NCBI GenBank assembly: GCA_002338605.1
Contig: DDIP01000264.1
Span: forward strand, 1 to 17,861
Direction of reading: 5' to 3'
Length of the DNA: 17,861 nt
Source: Proteobacteria bacterium UBA1847
GTDB lineage: Bacteria > Pseudomonadota > Gammaproteobacteria > Steroidobacterales > Woeseiaceae
Position 1 is the stretch's first letter. Each line of letters begins with the position of its first letter. The notes below the pieces were generated by a model. It did not search any database and had not been told where the DNA came from. It saw only the letters and a program-made list of their open reading frames with translations. The position numbers and the translations under genes are program-made. Below are positions 10,350-17,227 of the stretch, piece by piece.

Positions 10350-10961
10350 ATGTCGCAGTACCCTGAAGCCCATTTCATCAAGAGTGCCAATGCCGCCAGC
10401 CAGTTCGTCGATGACACAGGCGCCGAGGTGGCAGTTGCGGGCCGCTCGAATGCCGGCAAGTCCAGTGCGATCAATATTATTGTCAACCGGCGGCAATTCG
10501 CGCGCACCAGCAAGACCCCCGGCCGAACCCAGCTGGTCAATTTCTTTGCGCTTAGGGCCGGTGAGCGGCTGGTTGACCTGCCTGGCTACGGTTTCGCCAA
10601 GGTATCCACCCGGATGCGAGCGCACTGGCGCGATCTGATCGCGAATTATTTTGAATCGAGAAAAAGCCTGGCCGGCCTGTTTCTTATCGTTGACATTCGT
10701 CGACAGATCACGGCGTTTGATACACAGATGCTGGGGTTCGCCGAGATGGTTTCGCTGCCCACGCACGTGCTGTTGACCAAGGCGGACAAGCTGAAGCGGG
10801 GACAGGCCGCTACTGCCATGCTGAACGTGCGGCGTGAGTTGCGGGGTATCGCGACGGTACAGCAGTTTTCGGCGCTGACTCGCGCGGGAGAAGACGAGGC
10901 ACGTGCGAGGCTCGATCAATTCCTGACGGAACCGCTGCAGAATAAAACAACCCCGAAGTAA
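10350..10961 (+). CDS. engB: Ribosome biogenesis GTP-binding protein EngB (YihA/YsxC)
   Basis: A 203-residue cytoplasmic GTPase of the TrmE-Era-EngA-EngB group, needed for large ribosomal subunit assembly. The GTPase motifs are in order: G1 GRSNAGKSS at 31-39, G2 region TPGRTQ at 57-61, G3 DLPGYG at 76-81, G4 TKAD at 143-146, G5 SAL at 174-176. The frame is open for a further 143 codons upstream, but that stretch runs across the c4 gene on the other strand. Homologues begin just before the PEAHFIKSA segment, so ATG 10350 is chosen; its ribosome site is weak. It converges on polA, as in many gammaproteobacteria. Its last seven codons overlap the terminator of the minus-strand small RNA, which may explain the C-terminal tail NKTTPK. 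Confidence 0.95.
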   Translation: MSQYPEAHFIKSANAASQFVDDTGAEVAVAGRSNAGKSSAINIIVNRRQFARTSKTPGRTQLVNFFALRAGERLVDLPGYGFAKVSTRMRAHWRDLIANYFESRKSLAGLFLIVDIRRQITAFDTQMLGFAEMVSLPTHVLLTKADKLKRGQAATAMLNVRRELRGIATVQQFSALTRAGEDEARARLDQFLTEPLQNKTTPK

Positions 10962-10984
10962 CGACATGTGTCGCTACCCCGGGG
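10941..10984 (-). terminator. Rho-independent terminator (leftward) overlapping the engB 3' end
   Basis: Plus-strand arms 10951-10965 and 10970-10984 form a 15-bp stem with a 4-base loop. Read leftwards, the stem is followed at once by TTGTTTTATT (10950-10941). Three of the 15 pairs are G-U in the minus-strand RNA and would be A-C mismatches in a plus-strand RNA, and no T-tract follows on the plus strand, so this terminator works leftwards. It ends either the small RNA or polA read-through transcription. Confidence 0.85.
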
Positions 10985-11112
10985 CCAGAAGAAGCAGGCG
11001 GCTTGGGGTAACCGCCCGCGCGCCTGTTTAGGGAGGTAAACAGGCGAGTGACTCATGCACTCGAAAAGATTAGAACGAAACCTGGGGAATCAGTTCCACG
11101 ATATTTTTATCT
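10941..11112 (-). ncRNA. Putative sX13/Spot 42-position small RNA with C-rich hairpin loops
   Basis: Between the convergent genes polA and engB, the minus strand folds by eye into a chain of hairpins. H1 is 11097-11077 (7 bp with one bulge, loop AUUCCC). H2 is 11063-11045 (up to 6 bp). H3 is 11046-11021 (10 perfect pairs, loop CCUCCC). H4 is 11019-10994 (10 pairs, loop ACCCCA). A 15-bp terminator with a U-rich tail follows. Single-stranded U-rich stretches (11076-11064 and 10993-10985) could bind Hfq. H2 and H3 compete for two bases. The 5' end is not fixed; candidate promoter spacing puts it between about 11112 and 11097, giving about 157-172 nt. From family knowledge, Spot 42, ErsA and sX13 are encoded in this same interval, and sX13 acts by C-rich loops on G-rich mRNA sites, so an sX13-like regulator is inferred. 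A structured polA 3' UTR is the alternative. Confidence 0.7.
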
Positions 11113-11118
11113 TATTGA

Positions 11119-11146
11119 AATATATATAAAAATGGATTAGACACAA
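11119..11146 (-). promoter_or_regulatory. Candidate promoter of the polA-engB small RNA
   Basis: Leftward TTGTGT (11146-11141) and TATATT (11124-11119) are separated by 16 bp; the -10 matches 5 of 6 consensus bases and the -35 only 3. Transcription would begin near 11112. The surrounding 50 bp are very AT-rich compared with the window. A second choice, TAAAAA at 11109-11104, would start the RNA right at the first hairpin. Confidence 0.3.
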
Positions 11147-11163
11147 TCTAAATAACGGTCAGG

Positions 11164-13854
11164 CTAGTGTGCCTCGTCCCAGTTCTTGCCGACGCCGGCC
11201 TCGACCTTCAGCGGCACCGACAACTCAGCCGCCGCACTCATCAATTCGACCACGCGATCACGTACGGCCTCGACCTGGTCCCTCGCAACCTCGAAAACCA
11301 GTTCGTCATGGACCTGCATGATCATACGGGCATCAGCCTTGTCCCGATTCAGCCAGGCGTGAACGGCAATCATCGCACGCTTGATAATATCGGCCGCCGT
11401 GCCCTGCATCGGCGCATTGATCGCAGTACGCTCGGCGTACTGTCGCCGATTCGCATTGCGGGCATTGATTTCGGGCAGGTACAGTCGGCGCCCGAACACG
11501 GTCTCGACGAAGCCGTCGGCGCTTGCCCTTTCGCGAATGTTGTCCATGAATGCTTTCACACCCGGGTAACGGTCGAAGTAAAGATTCACATATTCCTGCG
11601 CTTCGCCGCGTGAAATCCCCAGCTGTTTTGCAAGGCCAAATGCGGACATGCCGTACATGAGGCCGAAATTGATCGCCTTGGCCGACCGGCGCTGATCCGC
11701 TGTAACGTCTTCGAGCTCAAGGCCGAAGACCTCGGCTGCCGTCGCGCGATGCACATCAAGCCCCCTGGAAAAGGCCTCGACCAGTCCCGCGTCTGCCGAC
11801 AGGTGCGCCATGATCCTGAGTTCAATCTGTGAATAGTCGGCCGCCAGCAGAACCTGGCCTTCCGGCGCAACAAACGCCTGGCGAATGCGGCGACCCTCGG
11901 GAGTGCGGATTGGAATATTCTGCAGGTTGGGATCTGTCGATGAGAGTCGGCCGGTCGCGGCTACCGCCTGGTGATACGAGGTATGAATGCGGCCCGTTCT
12001 CTCGGCAATTTGCAGCGGTAGTTTGTCCGTGTAGGTGCTTTTCAGTTTGCTGACGCTGCGGTACTCAATGATCACCGCGGGCAATTCATAGTCGGCGGCA
12101 AGCTCGACCAGCACATCCTCGGCGGTCGAGGGTTGCCCCTTGGGTGTCTTGCGAATGACCGGCAGACCCTGTTGTTCGAACAGTATTTCCTGCAGTTGCT
12201 TTGGCGATCCGAGGTTGAACGGGCCGCCAGCCAACTCATGTGCCCTGGCCTCCAGTTCTCTCATTTTTTTCGCCAGTTCGCCGCTCTGCGTCGTCAGCAT
12301 TTTTCGGTCGACAAGAACACCGGTTTCTTCCATTTTGAGCAGAATCGGTACCAGGGGTTGTTCAATTTCTTCGTAGACTTTTCGAAGCGACCCGTGCTGC
12401 CCTAGTTGCTCCCACAATACCTTGTGCAACTCGAGCGTGATGTCGGCATCTTCACAGGCATAGGGTGCTGCGATTTCGAGGTCGATCTGGTTGAACGTCA
12501 ATTGCCTGGCACCCTTTCCAGCGACATCTTCATAGTGAATCGTTTGGCGGCCGAGATATTGCCGCGCAACAGAATCCATGTCGTGACGGGTTGCAACACT
12601 GTTCAGGACATAGGATTCGAGCATCGAGTCGAACTGCATGCCGCCGAGGGCGATATCGTATCGAGCGAGGATGTGGGCATCGTATTTCAGATGATGCCCG
12701 ACTTTTTTCTGCTGGTCGTCCTGGAGCCAGCCGCGAAGCTTTTTCAGCACTTCGTCGCGCGGCAACTGGTCGGGGGCACCAGGATAGTCGTGCGCTAACG
12801 GGATGTAAGCCGCTTCTCCCGACCTGACGGACAGTGACAGGCCGACGATCTCCGCCTGCATGTAGTTGATGCTGGTCGTTTCCGTATCGAATGCCGTGAG
12901 CTCGGCCATTTCGATTTTTTCAAGCCATCGCTCGAACGCCTTCCAGTCGAGAACGGTTTCGTATGCCATATCGTCGCTTGTTTCGACTGCCGCGGCCGCT
13001 GCGTCGTTTTCGTCGTCAAGCTGGCCCAACATCGTACGCAGGTCGAACCGCCCATACAGTTCTCTCAAACGCGGAGTGTCGGCGTGGCCTGGCTTGAGGT
13101 CATCAACGCTGATGTCAAGATCGACATCATCCCGAATCGCCGCGAGCTCGTGAGACAACCGAAGCGACTCGACGTTTGCGCGCAAGCTGTCGCCAACCTT
13201 GCCTTTGATGTCGTCGGCGTTTTCGATAATTCCGGCCGCGCTCGAATACTGGTTGAGCCACTTGGAGGCCGTTTTGGGACCGACTTTCGGAACACCGGGG
13301 ATATTGTCCGAGGTGTCGCCAACCAGGGCCAGGTAGTCGACGATCTGTTCGGGATAAACGTCAAACCTGGCCTTGACGCCGTCGCGATCGAGGCGCGAAT
13401 CATTCATTGTGTTGATCAGGGTCACATTATCATTGACGAGCTGCGCGAGGTCCTTGTCACCGGTCGATACGAGGACACTCAAGTCACGGCTGGCCGCCTG
13501 TTTGCACAAGGTACCGATGACGTCGTCGGCTTCCACGCCCGGTACGCGGAGCAACGGCAGGCCCATCGCCTCGACGGCATCGAGTATGGGTTGTACCTGC
13601 GAGCGAAGTTCATCCGGCATTGGGGGTCGGGTCGCTTTGTAATCTTCGTATAACTCGTCGCGAAAGGTTTTGCCGGGCGCGTCGAATACGACGGCGACGT
13701 ACTCGGGGTGCTCTTCGCGAATGAGCTTCTGGATCATCGTCAGCACACCGTGCAGCGCGCCGGTTGGTTCGCCTTTCGAGTTGGTCAGGGGCGGCAGCGC
13801 GTGAAAGGCGCGGTACAGATACGATGACCCGTCGATCAGAACAAGGTCAGTCAT
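11164..13854 (-). CDS. polA: DNA polymerase I
   Basis: An 896-residue family A DNA polymerase for Okazaki-fragment processing and repair, close to the 928 residues of E. coli PolA. Residues 1 to about 285 form the 5'-3' nuclease, opening with DGSSYLYRAFHALPP. The 3'-5' exonuclease spans about 295-490; its metal-binding motif FDTETTS is intact with D323 and E325, so proofreading is probably active. The polymerase domain holds motif A (ADYSQIELRIMAHLS, D673), motif B (RRSAKAINFGLMYG) and motif C (MQVHDELVFEV, D850). A stretch rich in Asp and Ala near 275-290 links the first two domains. ATG 13854 lies 2 bp after the lptM stop with no clear ribosome site, suggesting coupled translation. The gene converges on engB, with the small RNA just downstream. 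Confidence 0.98.
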   Translation of the reverse strand: MTDLVLIDGSSYLYRAFHALPPLTNSKGEPTGALHGVLTMIQKLIREEHPEYVAVVFDAPGKTFRDELYEDYKATRPPMPDELRSQVQPILDAVEAMGLPLLRVPGVEADDVIGTLCKQAASRDLSVLVSTGDKDLAQLVNDNVTLINTMNDSRLDRDGVKARFDVYPEQIVDYLALVGDTSDNIPGVPKVGPKTASKWLNQYSSAAGIIENADDIKGKVGDSLRANVESLRLSHELAAIRDDVDLDISVDDLKPGHADTPRLRELYGRFDLRTMLGQLDDENDAAAAAVETSDDMAYETVLDWKAFERWLEKIEMAELTAFDTETTSINYMQAEIVGLSLSVRSGEAAYIPLAHDYPGAPDQLPRDEVLKKLRGWLQDDQQKKVGHHLKYDAHILARYDIALGGMQFDSMLESYVLNSVATRHDMDSVARQYLGRQTIHYEDVAGKGARQLTFNQIDLEIAAPYACEDADITLELHKVLWEQLGQHGSLRKVYEEIEQPLVPILLKMEETGVLVDRKMLTTQSGELAKKMRELEARAHELAGGPFNLGSPKQLQEILFEQQGLPVIRKTPKGQPSTAEDVLVELAADYELPAVIIEYRSVSKLKSTYTDKLPLQIAERTGRIHTSYHQAVAATGRLSSTDPNLQNIPIRTPEGRRIRQAFVAPEGQVLLAADYSQIELRIMAHLSADAGLVEAFSRGLDVHRATAAEVFGLELEDVTADQRRSAKAINFGLMYGMSAFGLAKQLGISRGEAQEYVNLYFDRYPGVKAFMDNIRERASADGFVETVFGRRLYLPEINARNANRRQYAERTAINAPMQGTAADIIKRAMIAVHAWLNRDKADARMIMQVHDELVFEVARDQVEAVRDRVVELMSAAAELSVPLKVEAGVGKNWDEAH

Positions 13855-14112: not shown

Positions 14113-15297
14113 TCATTTTGCGTATCGTTTTGCCACCTGGCGGTAGGCGTCACGAAACGGGATCCCTTCCGCGCGCACCAGTCGGTAGGCCTCGGCTGTT
14201 GCGAATATGCCCTCGTCGAGCGTGATGTTTTCGGGCCGGAATTCGAGTCCTTGCAGCAGGTAGGCCATGATATCGACGCTGTCGATTGCCAGGTCGATAC
14301 CGCGAAATAACGGCGCTTTCAGGCGTTGCAGGTCGCGATGATAGCCAGAGGGCAGTTTGGCCGTGATCATCAGGGATTCATTCAGTGCAGCATGCGCCGT
14401 TGCGGAACTTGCGCGCAACAGCTCGAGTACGTCGGGATTGCGCTTTTGCGGCATGATGGATGAACCGGTAGTAACTTCAGCCGCCAGGCTGATATAGGCG
14501 AACTCCTGTGTATAGAACAGCAACAGGTCGCTGGCCATTCGGCCAAGGTCCTGCATCAACAGCGTGATTTCGAACAGCAGCGCGCTCTCGGCCTTGCCGC
14601 GCGATAATTGCACCGCGGTTACCGGCTCCTGGGTGGATTCAAAGTTCAACTTCGCTGTTGTGGCGTCACGGTCCAGCGGCAACCCGGGTGTGCCATAGCC
14701 GGCAGCGCTCCCAAGCGGGTTCTTGTTGAAACGCTTCTGAACGCCGTGCAAGCCGTGCTCGGCGTCGGCGAAACCCTCGTCGAAGCCACCACACCACAAG
14801 GCCACCGACGATGGCATCGCGTGTTGCATGTGCGTGTAGCCTGGCAATTCGACGTCACCTTGTCGCTCAATGAGCGCATTGATCGATGCTCGCAGTCCAA
14901 AGACCCGGTCCGCCAGGTCAGCCGCTGCGTCGCGCAGGTAAAGTCGCAGCGCGGTCAGCACCTGGTCATTGCGTGAGCGTCCAAGATGCAGTCGGCCACC
15001 GGTAGCACCGATTGCATCGGTCAGGCGAGTTTCGAGTGCAGTATGTGCGTCCTCGTCTTCAAGGTGAATGTGCCAGTCGCCGGCTGCGAAACTGTCAGCC
15101 AGCGTGCGCAGGCCGGCGCATATCGAGGCACAATCCTCATCGCTGATCAGCTTCTGCTCCGCAAGCATTTCTGTATGTGCGATTGAGCCGAGTACGTCGT
15201 AGTGCACGAGTCGTGCATCAAGTTGGTGATCTTCGCCCGCCGTGTACCGCAGTACGCGCTCATCCAGTGGCAGGCCTTTGTCCCAAAGTCTGCTCAT
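14113..15297 (-). CDS. argH: Argininosuccinate lyase
   Basis: A 394-residue enzyme of the fumarase/aspartase superfamily that splits argininosuccinate to arginine and fumarate, the last step of arginine synthesis. Conserved regions are present: LGRSRNDQV at 105-113, GYTHMQHAMP from 153 with the catalytic-region H156, and the family signature GSSIMPQKRNPD at 278-289 carrying the catalytic serine loop. It is about 60 residues shorter than the common form of about 460; the missing part is the C-terminal helical region. The segment at about 195-235 (GSAAGYGTPGLPLDRD to VQLSRGKAES) also departs from the usual LAGTTYPIDR and SDRDF forms. This suggests the divergent ArgH type found with acylornithine carbamoyltransferases. 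Its ATG overlaps the argB stop by 4 bp (ATGA). Confidence 0.95.
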   Translation of the reverse strand: MSRLWDKGLPLDERVLRYTAGEDHQLDARLVHYDVLGSIAHTEMLAEQKLISDEDCASICAGLRTLADSFAAGDWHIHLEDEDAHTALETRLTDAIGATGGRLHLGRSRNDQVLTALRLYLRDAAADLADRVFGLRASINALIERQGDVELPGYTHMQHAMPSSVALWCGGFDEGFADAEHGLHGVQKRFNKNPLGSAAGYGTPGLPLDRDATTAKLNFESTQEPVTAVQLSRGKAESALLFEITLLMQDLGRMASDLLLFYTQEFAYISLAAEVTTGSSIMPQKRNPDVLELLRASSATAHAALNESLMITAKLPSGYHRDLQRLKAPLFRGIDLAIDSVDIMAYLLQGLEFRPENITLDEGIFATAEAYRLVRAEGIPFRDAYRQVAKRYAK

Positions 15298-16223
15298 GGC
15301 GAATGAGTCTGTTCAGCCGGCGAAAGCGCGGCAATATCGTCGACGACCAGCGTGCCTGTACCCTCGTTAGTGAATATCTCGAGCAGTATGCTGTCGGGAG
15401 CCTTGCTGGAGATGACGTGGACGCGCTGCACGCCGTTCGCAATTGCCCAGTCGATTGCCGCCGCTTTCGGAATCATGCCATCCGCGAGTTTGCCGGAGTC
15501 ACGCAGCGTCTGCAGGGCGGACCGGTCGATGTAGGAAATCAGGGAACCGGGGTCGTTGATGTCCTCGAAAATGCCGGCAGCTCCGGTGGCAAGTACCAGT
15601 TTTTCCGCCTTGAGTTCAGCGGCAATGGCCGCCGCAACGGTGTCCGCATTGATGTTCAGGATATTGCCTGATTCGTCGCAGGAGAGCGGGCTGACGACCG
15701 GCATCAGGCCGTTGTCCAGTTGCTTTCGCAGGATGTCGGCATCAACGGCATCGATATCGCCGACGAAGCCATAATCGACCGGTGCCTCACCGGCGCGTTC
15801 GACGGGAGGACGCTTGTGCGCCCGGATCAGGCCCGCATCGACACCGCTGATGCCCACCGCCGGAATTTGCAGGTCACGGCAGGTCGCGAGGATGCGCGTG
15901 TTGATCTGGCCATTGAGTACCATCGTCGCGACACTCAGGGAACCGCCATCCGTCACCCGGCGCCCGTCGATAAACGTGGTGTCATGCCCGAGTGCTTTGG
16001 CGAGTTCCGTGGACTGCGGTCCGCCGCCATGAACCAGCACCACCCGAACACCGACCTGGTGCAATATCCCGACCTGTTCCATCAGGGCTTTGGTTTTTTC
16101 GACATCGACGAAAACTTCGCCGCCAGCCTTGATTACGAACACCTTGCCTTTGAAAAGTCGAATGTAGGGTGCAGCATGCTTGAGCGCCGAGACGACAATA
16201 GCGCGGTCCTTGTTTGCAATCAT
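15294..16223 (-). CDS. argB: Acetylglutamate kinase (N-acylglutamate kinase)
   Basis: A 309-residue amino acid kinase phosphorylating the gamma-carboxylate of N-acylglutamate, the second step of arginine synthesis. Residues match the family: VIKAGG at 30-35 with K32, VHGGGPQ at 64-70, GRRVTDGG at 87-94, NINADTVAAAI at 190-200 and MIPKA at 250-254 with K253. The end, EIFTNEGTGTLV, is typical. The N-terminal SALKHAAPYIRLFKGKVFVI is reminiscent of the kinase-like domain of N-acetylglutamate synthase ArgA. Some relatives, including Xanthomonas, fuse the kinase to an acetyltransferase; here the protein stops after the kinase with no GNAT domain. The gene overlaps argF' and argH by 4 bp each. Whether its substrate is acetyl- or succinyl-glutamate cannot be told. 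Confidence 0.94.
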   Translation of the reverse strand: MIANKDRAIVVSALKHAAPYIRLFKGKVFVIKAGGEVFVDVEKTKALMEQVGILHQVGVRVVLVHGGGPQSTELAKALGHDTTFIDGRRVTDGGSLSVATMVLNGQINTRILATCRDLQIPAVGISGVDAGLIRAHKRPPVERAGEAPVDYGFVGDIDAVDADILRKQLDNGLMPVVSPLSCDESGNILNINADTVAAAIAAELKAEKLVLATGAAGIFEDINDPGSLISYIDRSALQTLRDSGKLADGMIPKAAAIDWAIANGVQRVHVISSKAPDSILLEIFTNEGTGTLVVDDIAALSPAEQTHSP

Positions 16224-17227
16224 GATGGCTTCCCCAGCATCTGGTGCAACACAGCCATTTGCGCGAGCATGCGATTGCGCGCTTCGGGGATAACAATACT
16301 CCGGGGACCGTCAAGGATCTCGTCAGCAACGACAACCCCGCGACGTACCGGCAGGCAGTGCATGAAACGGCAATCGTCTTTTGCCGTCTGGAACCAGGTT
16401 TCGTCAACACACCAATCCAGGTACTGCTCGCGAAGTTTCTGGTCGTCGAGTTTCTTGCCGTAGTGACGCGTCGATGACCACGACTTGGCATAAATAATAT
16501 GCGCGCCTTCAACGGCCTCAGCACGCTGGTCGGTTTCGGTGACCGATCCGCCGGACGCTTGTGCTGCTGCTGTCGCTTTTTTCATCAACTGGTCGGGTAG
16601 CTCGAAGCCTTCCGGTCTCAGCACGGTGACGTCCATACCGCGCATCGCAGCCATGTGCAGTGTCGCTGCCGGAACTGCCAATGGCAGTGCGCGGGGGTGA
16701 TAGGCCCAGCTTAAAACGAACTTGCCACCGTTTGCAGGGACGGAAAAATCATCCATGGTTTTCCAGTCCGCGAGACTCTGGCAGGGGTGATTCATGGCCG
16801 ATTCCATATTGATATACGGCTTGTCAGCAAGGCCGGTCATCGTCTTGAATTCCGTCTCGGCCAGGTCGGCTTCAATGCTCTTGCGCTCTGCAAATGCGCG
16901 GATTCCTATCGCATCGCCGTAGGACGCGATGACCGGAATCGCTTCACGGATGTGTTCGGCCGCTGCTCCATCCATGACGATTCCAGGCCGTGATTCAATG
17001 CCATGAATCGACATATCCGGTGAGATGACAAACGATCCTCCACCCAGTCGGACCATCGCTGCCTGGAATGATGCAAGTGTTCGCAATGACGGGCTCAGGA
17101 ACAGCAACGCCAAAACCTTTCCTTTCAGGGCGTCAGGCTCGGGCCTCGCATCGAGACGATTGGCCAGGTCGAGCAGAGTCCGGATTTCTTCACCTGAAAA
17201 GTCTGCCAGGTCATTAAACGCTTTCAT
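16220..17227 (-). CDS. argF': N-acylornithine carbamoyltransferase (acetyl- or succinyl-ornithine type)
   Basis: A 335-residue aspartate/ornithine transcarbamylase-family enzyme. The carbamoyl phosphate site is SPSLRTLASF at 45-54, with R49 kept but Leu51 where the usual SxRTR has a second Arg. Other motifs are HPCQSLAD at 147-154, SWAYHPRALP at 173-182, YAKSW at 246-250, VDE at 274-276 and FMHCLPVRR at 288-296. HPRALPLAVP, YAKSW and FMHCLPVRR mark acylornithine enzymes rather than ordinary ornithine carbamoyltransferase. Compared from memory with the Bacteroides fragilis succinylornithine enzyme and the Xanthomonas acetylornithine enzyme, it is nearer the former (EHIREAIPVIASYGDAIGIRAFAE). 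The specificity residue, Pro in the succinyl and Glu in the acetyl enzyme, is Ala90 here. The start has AAGGA 6 bases upstream and abuts the aminotransferase TGA. Confidence 0.9.
   Translation of the reverse strand: MKAFNDLADFSGEEIRTLLDLANRLDARPEPDALKGKVLALLFLSPSLRTLASFQAAMVRLGGGSFVISPDMSIHGIESRPGIVMDGAAAEHIREAIPVIASYGDAIGIRAFAERKSIEADLAETEFKTMTGLADKPYINMESAMNHPCQSLADWKTMDDFSVPANGGKFVLSWAYHPRALPLAVPAATLHMAAMRGMDVTVLRPEGFELPDQLMKKATAAAQASGGSVTETDQRAEAVEGAHIIYAKSWSSTRHYGKKLDDQKLREQYLDWCVDETWFQTAKDDCRFMHCLPVRRGVVVADEILDGPRSIVIPEARNRMLAQMAVLHQMLGKPS

Follow-up and report, generated by a model that had tools for sequence, protein, structure and literature searches.

A predicted small RNA with C-rich loops and an RpoE-type promoter in the polA-engB gap of Woeseiaceae, most likely a branch of a gammaproteobacterial RNA family

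Results

The polA-engB gap and its sRNA gene

The window analyzed here is a 17,861-nt stretch of contig DDIP01000264.1 from Proteobacteria bacterium UBA1847 (GCA_002338605.1), a MAG of 467 contigs that is 82.9% complete. Its polA gene lies on the minus strand (11164..13854; NF004397, 1217.5 bits) and converges with engB, encoding the YihA/YsxC GTPase, on the plus strand (10350..10961, start codon inferred; TIGR03598, 214.3 bits); the engB stop codon is the TAA at 10959-10961. The named genomes closest in PolA are two Woeseiaceae MAGs, at 87% and 84%, and the genus-level relatives are therefore called Woeseiaceae. Upstream of polA, at 14113-17227, lyase, amino-acid kinase and carbamoyltransferase genes stand in a row, as in an arginine-pathway cluster.

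Between the two genes the minus strand holds an sRNA gene (10943..11062) with a predicted product of about 120 nt and with polA as its upstream neighbor on the same strand. The 5' end was placed from promoter spacing and conservation, and the 3' end from the U-tract, which may carry the RNA on to 10941. The segment 10943-11062 folds at z -8.49, and the longer stretch picked out by an earlier, sequence-only reading of this DNA (10941..11112) folds at z -7.86; in each case none of 200 shuffles folded as well. With this fold and 24 genus-level copies, the sRNA gene is real and its transcription is predicted. The search of the whole MAG found this single copy. From its 5' end the predicted RNA is made up of a hairpin GAGUGC...CACUC, predicted in the fold and conserved in the genus (11046..11062, minus strand, as for all parts of the RNA); a hairpin with a 9-bp stem and the loop CCUCCC, which is complementary to a Shine-Dalgarno core (11022..11045, loop at 11031-11036); a hairpin with a 10-bp stem and the loop ACCCCA, present in the predicted fold and in alignments A1-A3 described below (10994..11019, loop at 11004-11009); a linker UUCUUCU, unpaired in the fold (10987..10993); and an intrinsic terminator (10943..10986) with a U-rich tail and a 17-bp stem that overlaps the engB stop codon.

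The sequence-only reading had proposed an RNA of 150-175 nt with three C-rich loops, AUUCCC, CCUCCC and ACCCCA. The latter two loops and the terminator are indeed on the minus strand, and the ACCCCA stem has the 10 bp given for it; the CCUCCC stem has 9 bp in the predicted fold against the 10 claimed. The AUUCCC hairpin had to be dropped from the sRNA. It sits in the promoter, and 11063-11112 folds at z -0.91, with 37 of 200 shuffles as good. Among 24 genus-level upstream stretches, a loop with CCC was predicted in only one, and the GAAC[TC] box had at least 4 of its 5 bases paired downstream in only three, the window's included. Since these 50 nt (11063-11112) carry a conserved two-box promoter, they are most likely not transcribed, and promoter spacing, conservation and the U-tract give about 120 nt instead of the greater length. 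A C-rich terminator loop, the usual third in the wider family, is likewise lacking in nearly all of the genus, CCC being found there in just 1 of 25 genus-level rows, so that two C-rich loops are left. The promoter and the 5' hairpin had no place in the earlier reading.

Just past the polA stop, the palindrome TTAGA-N5-TCTAA (11137-11151) leads into a T-rich run, perhaps a weak polA terminator. As a candidate conserved site between polA and the promoter it was rejected, its strict form occurring in only 6 of 24 upstream stretches. Long palindromic-looking repeats were seen by eye in the gap just after polA at L008, L013, L016, L017 and L018.

Conservation and covariation in the genus

A search for PolA covered 60 genomes, that of the window plus 59 relatives, and loci were returned for 30 of the matches (L002-L031, L002 being the window's own), all from the genus. 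The sRNA follows polA in 25 of the 30 loci, with 24 clean sequences and one, at L006, containing a run of N. At L009 the sRNA is cut by the contig end, the sequences of L014, L018 and L022 end too early to cover the site, and at L030 no match was found within 1.5 kb after polA. At L033, a named Woeseiaceae locus, there was no match within 433 nt after polA.

Alignment A1 is made of 24 copies from the genus, with that of the window among them. None of its 24 rows departs from the letters ACCTCCCT; the loop CCUCCC is identical in all 24 and together with its flanks forms the longest invariant stretch. Of the 33 stem pairs, 13 have double changes in A1, 31 in A2 (51 rows) and all 33 in A3 (105 rows), and the proportions of paired cells are 94.9%, 94.1% and 91.5%, versus 32-44%, 37-48% and 32-51% when the structure is slid; A2 and A3, which come from the wider searches below, were aligned to a structure, which favors that structure. 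In the CCUCCC hairpin all 9 stem pairs show double changes in A2, and likewise in A3. The 5' hairpin covaries in A2 and A3 and is without double changes inside the genus. In A3 the first loop has CUCCC in 97 of 105 rows, the second has CCCC in 96, and the terminator loop has CCC in 80. The earlier reading had asked for an alignment of relatives, naming stems that were not kept by compensating changes as grounds for giving it up; in A1, A2 and A3 compensating changes keep them. Its central claim, of a structured sRNA at polA-engB with C-rich loops complementary to the Shine-Dalgarno sequence, is borne out by the fold score, the invariant loop and the covariation.

An RpoE-type promoter

Upstream of the RNA, the minus strand carries a -35 box, GGAACT (11092..11097), read in the sequence and like those of rpoE genes' own promoters, and 17 nt after it a -10 box, TCTAA (11070..11074). 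In the genus the boxes read [GT]GAAC[TC] and mostly TC[TC]AA, and, counted from the RNA start, 23 of 24 copies have the first base of GAAC[TC] at -33 or -34. The two-box pattern, chosen after the sequences had been seen, lies in a region outside the RNA models R1 and R2 described below. It was found in 23 of 24 genus copies, 17 of 25 named copies and 81 of 104 class RNAs (the other 8 named copies and 23 class RNAs are without it), as compared to 196 of 20000 random windows (1%) from the same loci. The sole miss in the genus is L012, from G011, with a decayed -35 box.

For the promoters of rpoE itself, a first expression gave no consistent site (28 loci). Of 18 rpoE upstream stretches then read, all 16 genus loci (16 of the 20 genus rpoE loci were used) have AGAACT-N16-GTCTAT; a similar form was seen by eye in L142, and none by eye in L144. 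Given this rpoE form, the -10 boxes of the sRNA and rpoE promoters are alike, not identical. With a matrix made from the 16 rpoE promoters, the 99th percentile of random windows was exceeded by 2 of 24 copies in the genus, 10 of 25 named copies and, in the class, 36 of 83 copies at the locus and 8 of 22 others; the matrix was too strict as a test of the sRNA promoters, and the plainer two-box count was used instead.

Of the 22 genus relatives searched, 20 have RpoE over cut-off; it was missing in G004 and G011, 1.5 Mb genomes that keep the sRNA (L010 and L012); in the window's own, 82.9% complete MAG it was not found over cut-off. Among the 369 class genomes RpoE was over cut-off in 266, namely in 162 of 168 genomes with an R2 match and 104 of 201 without (Fisher p 1.7e-24, uncorrected for kinship or genome size). 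Genomes were assigned to these two groups by best tabulated E-value, a split that reproduces the RpoE total of 266. The promoter boxes and the co-occurrence suggest that the sRNA is most likely driven by RpoE.

Related RNAs across the class

Model R1 was built from A1 only and was run over 85 sources (783 kb). The window sRNA scores 118 bits against it by construction, being among the 24 building copies. Outside the Woeseiaceae, R1 gave 25 matches in 23 loci up to E 0.01, all downstream of polA on the polA strand and, except for L101, about 3 kb away, within 600 bases of polA. Two of the loci matched by R1 are Rfam sX13 loci, L088 (E 3.5e-5) and L092 (E 2.7e-6), which upholds the earlier suggestion of kinship with sX13. 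The wider model R2 was made from 51 R1 matches (A2), L088 and L092 among them, and because it contains both sX13 loci it cannot serve as independent evidence on sX13. When R2 was run on 55 further named loci (514 kb), four weak matches came out at E 1 or below, each directly behind polA: L080 (E 5e-4), L095, which is ErsA (0.03), L063 (0.42) and L083 (0.71).

At E 0.001, R2 matched in 168 of the 369 class genomes. From the better-scoring part of this list, 89 loci with 105 RNAs were studied (29 returned and 60 fetched stretches), PolA and EngB of the window being used as tblastn queries to call their neighbors. PolA is upstream on the same strand in 49 of the 89, convergent EngB is downstream in 57, and at least one of the two is so placed in 70. 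In five further loci (L126, L174, L179, L194, L209) the sRNA is turned round between polA and engB; four of these copies clearly have the promoter boxes, and in L179 the spacing is off. Counting the reversed orientation, polA and/or engB lie beside the sRNA in 75 of 89 loci. The remaining 14 have neither gene in the stretch at hand, being away from both or at contig ends. In 13 of these, one or two large ORFs were scanned, giving an M48 peptidase in three, a radical-SAM/TRAM protein in two, an RlmL-like protein in two, and some other Pfam match or none in the rest. The copies next to the M48 peptidase gene, which we take to be BepA-like, are L198, L199 and L206, and they have RpoE-type promoter boxes. 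Tandem arrays of 2-4 sRNA copies were seen at L138 (G229), L190 (G336), L037 and L231 (G079), many of the copies with RpoE-type promoter boxes of their own.

In its locus, RpoE-type promoter, C-rich loops and match to R1 and R2 (a match by construction), the window sRNA has the features that define this family. It is most likely a new branch of a class-wide family of C-rich-loop RNAs at polA-engB.

Relation to sX13, ErsA, anti-hemB and Spot 42

No Rfam model scored above cut-off over the window. The earlier reading had named sX13, Spot 42 and ErsA as the families to search for; in 10700-11300 none of the three gave a match at E 10 or below. Of the Rfam models, anti-hemB (RF02837) came closest, at 30.8 bits and E 2.8e-5, with a gathering score of 49.5. 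Membership in any of these four families by Rfam score was therefore rejected, and the window sRNA, being below the Rfam cut-offs tested, was not filed under any named family.

sX13 (RF02232, Xanthomonadaceae) resembles the window sRNA in lying downstream of polA and in carrying C-rich loops on stems, three such stems in sX13 versus two C-rich loops here. The over-cut-off sX13 copies (L232-L234) have GAACC and a TATA-like box and no clean RpoE promoter, which tells against a uniform picture. According to the sX13 study, sX13 lies downstream of polA and acts via its C-rich loops; G-rich motifs close to the start of translation are overrepresented in the mRNAs that it represses, and experiments are reported in which mRNAs with such motifs close to their ribosome-binding sites are repressed in a loop-dependent way (PMC3771888). 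The level of the RNA is there said to go up under high salt, at 37 C or in minimal medium, and not under H2O2 or at 4 C; sX13 is described as exclusive to the Xanthomonadaceae, and other polA loci are raised as a question (PMC3771888). ErsA (Pseudomon-1, RF01719, Pseudomonas) lies after polA in L095 and is weakly matched by R2 there (E 0.03) and in L247 (0.026). The L247 copy has the boxes GAACTT...GTCATAG, and the window sRNA likewise has an RpoE/AlgU-type promoter, a likeness at the level of sequence. ErsA is reported to be driven by sigma-22, an RpoE homologue (PMC5819304).

The third family, anti-hemB ("Burkholderia RNA 7"), is named after Burkholderia and hemB, not polA or RpoE. Its model matched in 167 of 369 class genomes, 20 of them over cut-off; polA and/or engB lie beside 15 of the 20 over-cut-off loci and beside 8 of 10 further loci below cut-off. 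Among Burkholderia RNAs it is listed once as expressed (PMC5688073) and once as predicted (PMC3521395). The Rfam sX13 model matched in 15 of 369 class genomes (3 over cut-off) and the ErsA model in 13 (1 over cut-off). Of these Rfam-matched places, 10 of the 15 for sX13 and 10 of the 13 for ErsA also have an R2 match at E 1e-3 or better, most of these being below the Rfam cut-offs. G229 has an array of four copies, of which the sX13 model matches one and the ErsA model another, while anti-hemB and R2 match all four. The weak sX13/ErsA matches at L243 and L245, with no R2 match, and at L257, with R2 at only E 0.035, look unrelated. Judging by these model matches and the shared locus, sX13, ErsA and anti-hemB probably also belong to the gammaproteobacterial polA-engB family.

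Spot 42 (RF00021) is CRP-controlled. It has the same locus as the window sRNA in E. coli, as the sX13 study notes (PMC3771888), and a Pseudomonas RNA next to engB has been listed as a putative Spot 42 in conserved context (PMC3349714). In Arsukibacterium a Spot 42-like RNA was seen at the polA-engB locus (L100:6889-7020), at 50.8 bits with an Rfam cut-off of 80; this copy gave no R2 match.

Searches for targets

The loop-1 complement, as AGGGAGGT-N4-9-ATG, gave 8 matches in G015, G028 and G010, equal to the 8 of the permuted control AGGAGGGT, and the backward-pattern controls of the two gave 5 and 4. The 8 loop-1-complement matches showed no common orthologue by eye in the three genomes; the permuted control matched a 333-aa ORF, RpoA-like by eye, in all three. 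What this test disfavors is only that the three genomes commonly carry exact 8-base complements immediately ahead of ATG. hfq, an sX13 target, was also considered as a conserved target. Of 30 hfq loci returned, 21 were from the genus, and 16 were read; GGGAGG was absent from all 16 genus starts and GGGG was present in one, about 40 nt upstream of the start codon, and hfq was rejected.

Discussion

We regard the window sRNA as probably a trans-acting RNA of about 120 nt with its own RpoE (sigma-E/AlgU)-type promoter, a C-rich-loop repressor that forms the Woeseiaceae branch of the polA-engB family. In this proposal, envelope stress would lead RpoE to transcribe the sRNA leftward from the promoter between polA and engB; two rigid hairpins would expose the loops CCUCCC and ACCCCA, whose pairing with G-rich ribosome-binding sites would block translation. 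The sequence CCUCCC resembles the anti-Shine-Dalgarno end of 16S rRNA. The structure, covariation, invariant loop, locus, promoter boxes and co-occurrence with RpoE are computed observations; from them we infer transcription by RpoE, pairing with ribosome-binding sites and repression. By analogy, the loop mechanism of sX13 and the sigma-22 control of ErsA would carry over to the window sRNA. Weighing against the proposal are the absence of an over-cut-off RpoE from the window's MAG and from G004 and G011, the copies without the two-box pattern or below the stricter matrix, the sX13 copies L232-L234, the 14 loci away from polA-engB or at contig ends, and the negative outcome of both target searches. 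An RNA of this kind would share with MicA, RybB and MicL of the enterobacteria the part of an RpoE-driven repressor in the envelope response; those RNAs lie at other loci and use Hfq-dependent linear seeds, not C-rich loops.

As to descent, we lean somewhat towards a single origin, in which sX13, ErsA, anti-hemB and the Woeseiaceae sRNA would be one ancestral gammaproteobacterial family: the class's original RpoE-driven envelope-stress sRNA, covering Shine-Dalgarno sequences by loops like the anti-Shine-Dalgarno, duplicated in tandem in some lineages and replaced by Spot 42 in others. The other account of the same data keeps the window sRNA real and RpoE-driven and makes the four RNAs separate inventions that converged on C-rich loops at a favored sRNA site. 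Spot 42 and the alpha-r7 RNAs do suggest such a favored place, Spot 42 standing at this locus in L100 (50.8 bits, cut-off 80) where R2 finds nothing. Up to E 10 the window is matched by neither the sX13 nor the ErsA model of Rfam, R2 reaches ErsA only at E 0.03 and 0.026, a model of GC hairpins and a terminator can match by composition, and below cut-off the anti-hemB model also matches E. coli, Caulobacter and Deinobacterium. Nevertheless, R1 reaches two Rfam sX13 loci from genus sequences only, R2 falls on 10 of 15 sX13 and 10 of 13 ErsA places (with two sX13 loci built into it), and in the G229 array the sX13 and ErsA models match different copies of one R2/anti-hemB RNA. On balance we consider convergence unlikely. 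Among the papers listed in the literature search none was seen to join the sX13, ErsA and anti-hemB families, and no paper in the library searched has both "sX13" and "ErsA" as whole words, most subscription papers being outside its scope.

Three further readings concern what the hairpins do. CsrA needs GGA in a loop, and no loop of the predicted fold has one, which argues against CsrA titration. Action mainly by binding Hfq would fit the U-rich linker and tail and the Hfq matches in 22 of 23 genus genomes (the match in G009 is partial and below cut-off); on the other side, the longest invariant stretch is CCUCCC with its flanks, and sX13 is reported to act without Hfq (PMC3771888). Protein binding in place of pairing through the loops is thus improbable. 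We give still less credence to hairpins that only terminate and insulate the converging transcripts of polA and engB, with no action in trans. The gap is convergent and the terminator overlaps the engB stop codon, as such a device would have it, but it would need no invariant loop stretch, fixed-distance promoter or tandem copies. Nor does it account for the five loci with the sRNA turned round in the gap, four clearly with promoter boxes, or for copies with such boxes away from polA-engB. That the stretch codes for a small protein is hardly credible and was rejected. All 24 copies have a GTG at RNA position 3, and in 12 of them, the window's included, a 10-codon frame starts there; the window RNA also has an ATG at position 7. 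The GTG frame, however, is cut off at the third codon in 7 copies and differs in length (7 to 38) in 5, and the ATG is in none of the 23 other copies. With the predicted RNA start, the GTG has just 2 nt before it, too few for a ribosome-binding site.

In sum, the preferred reading, a C-rich-loop repressor under RpoE, places the window sRNA among matching RNAs in 168 of 369 class genomes, with polA and/or engB at 75 of the 89 loci studied, and the RpoE-type promoter on most copies opens its control to direct test. Should this reading hold, three RNA families that now have separate names would be united, and there would be a first guess at the role of anti-hemB and of the unannotated copies.
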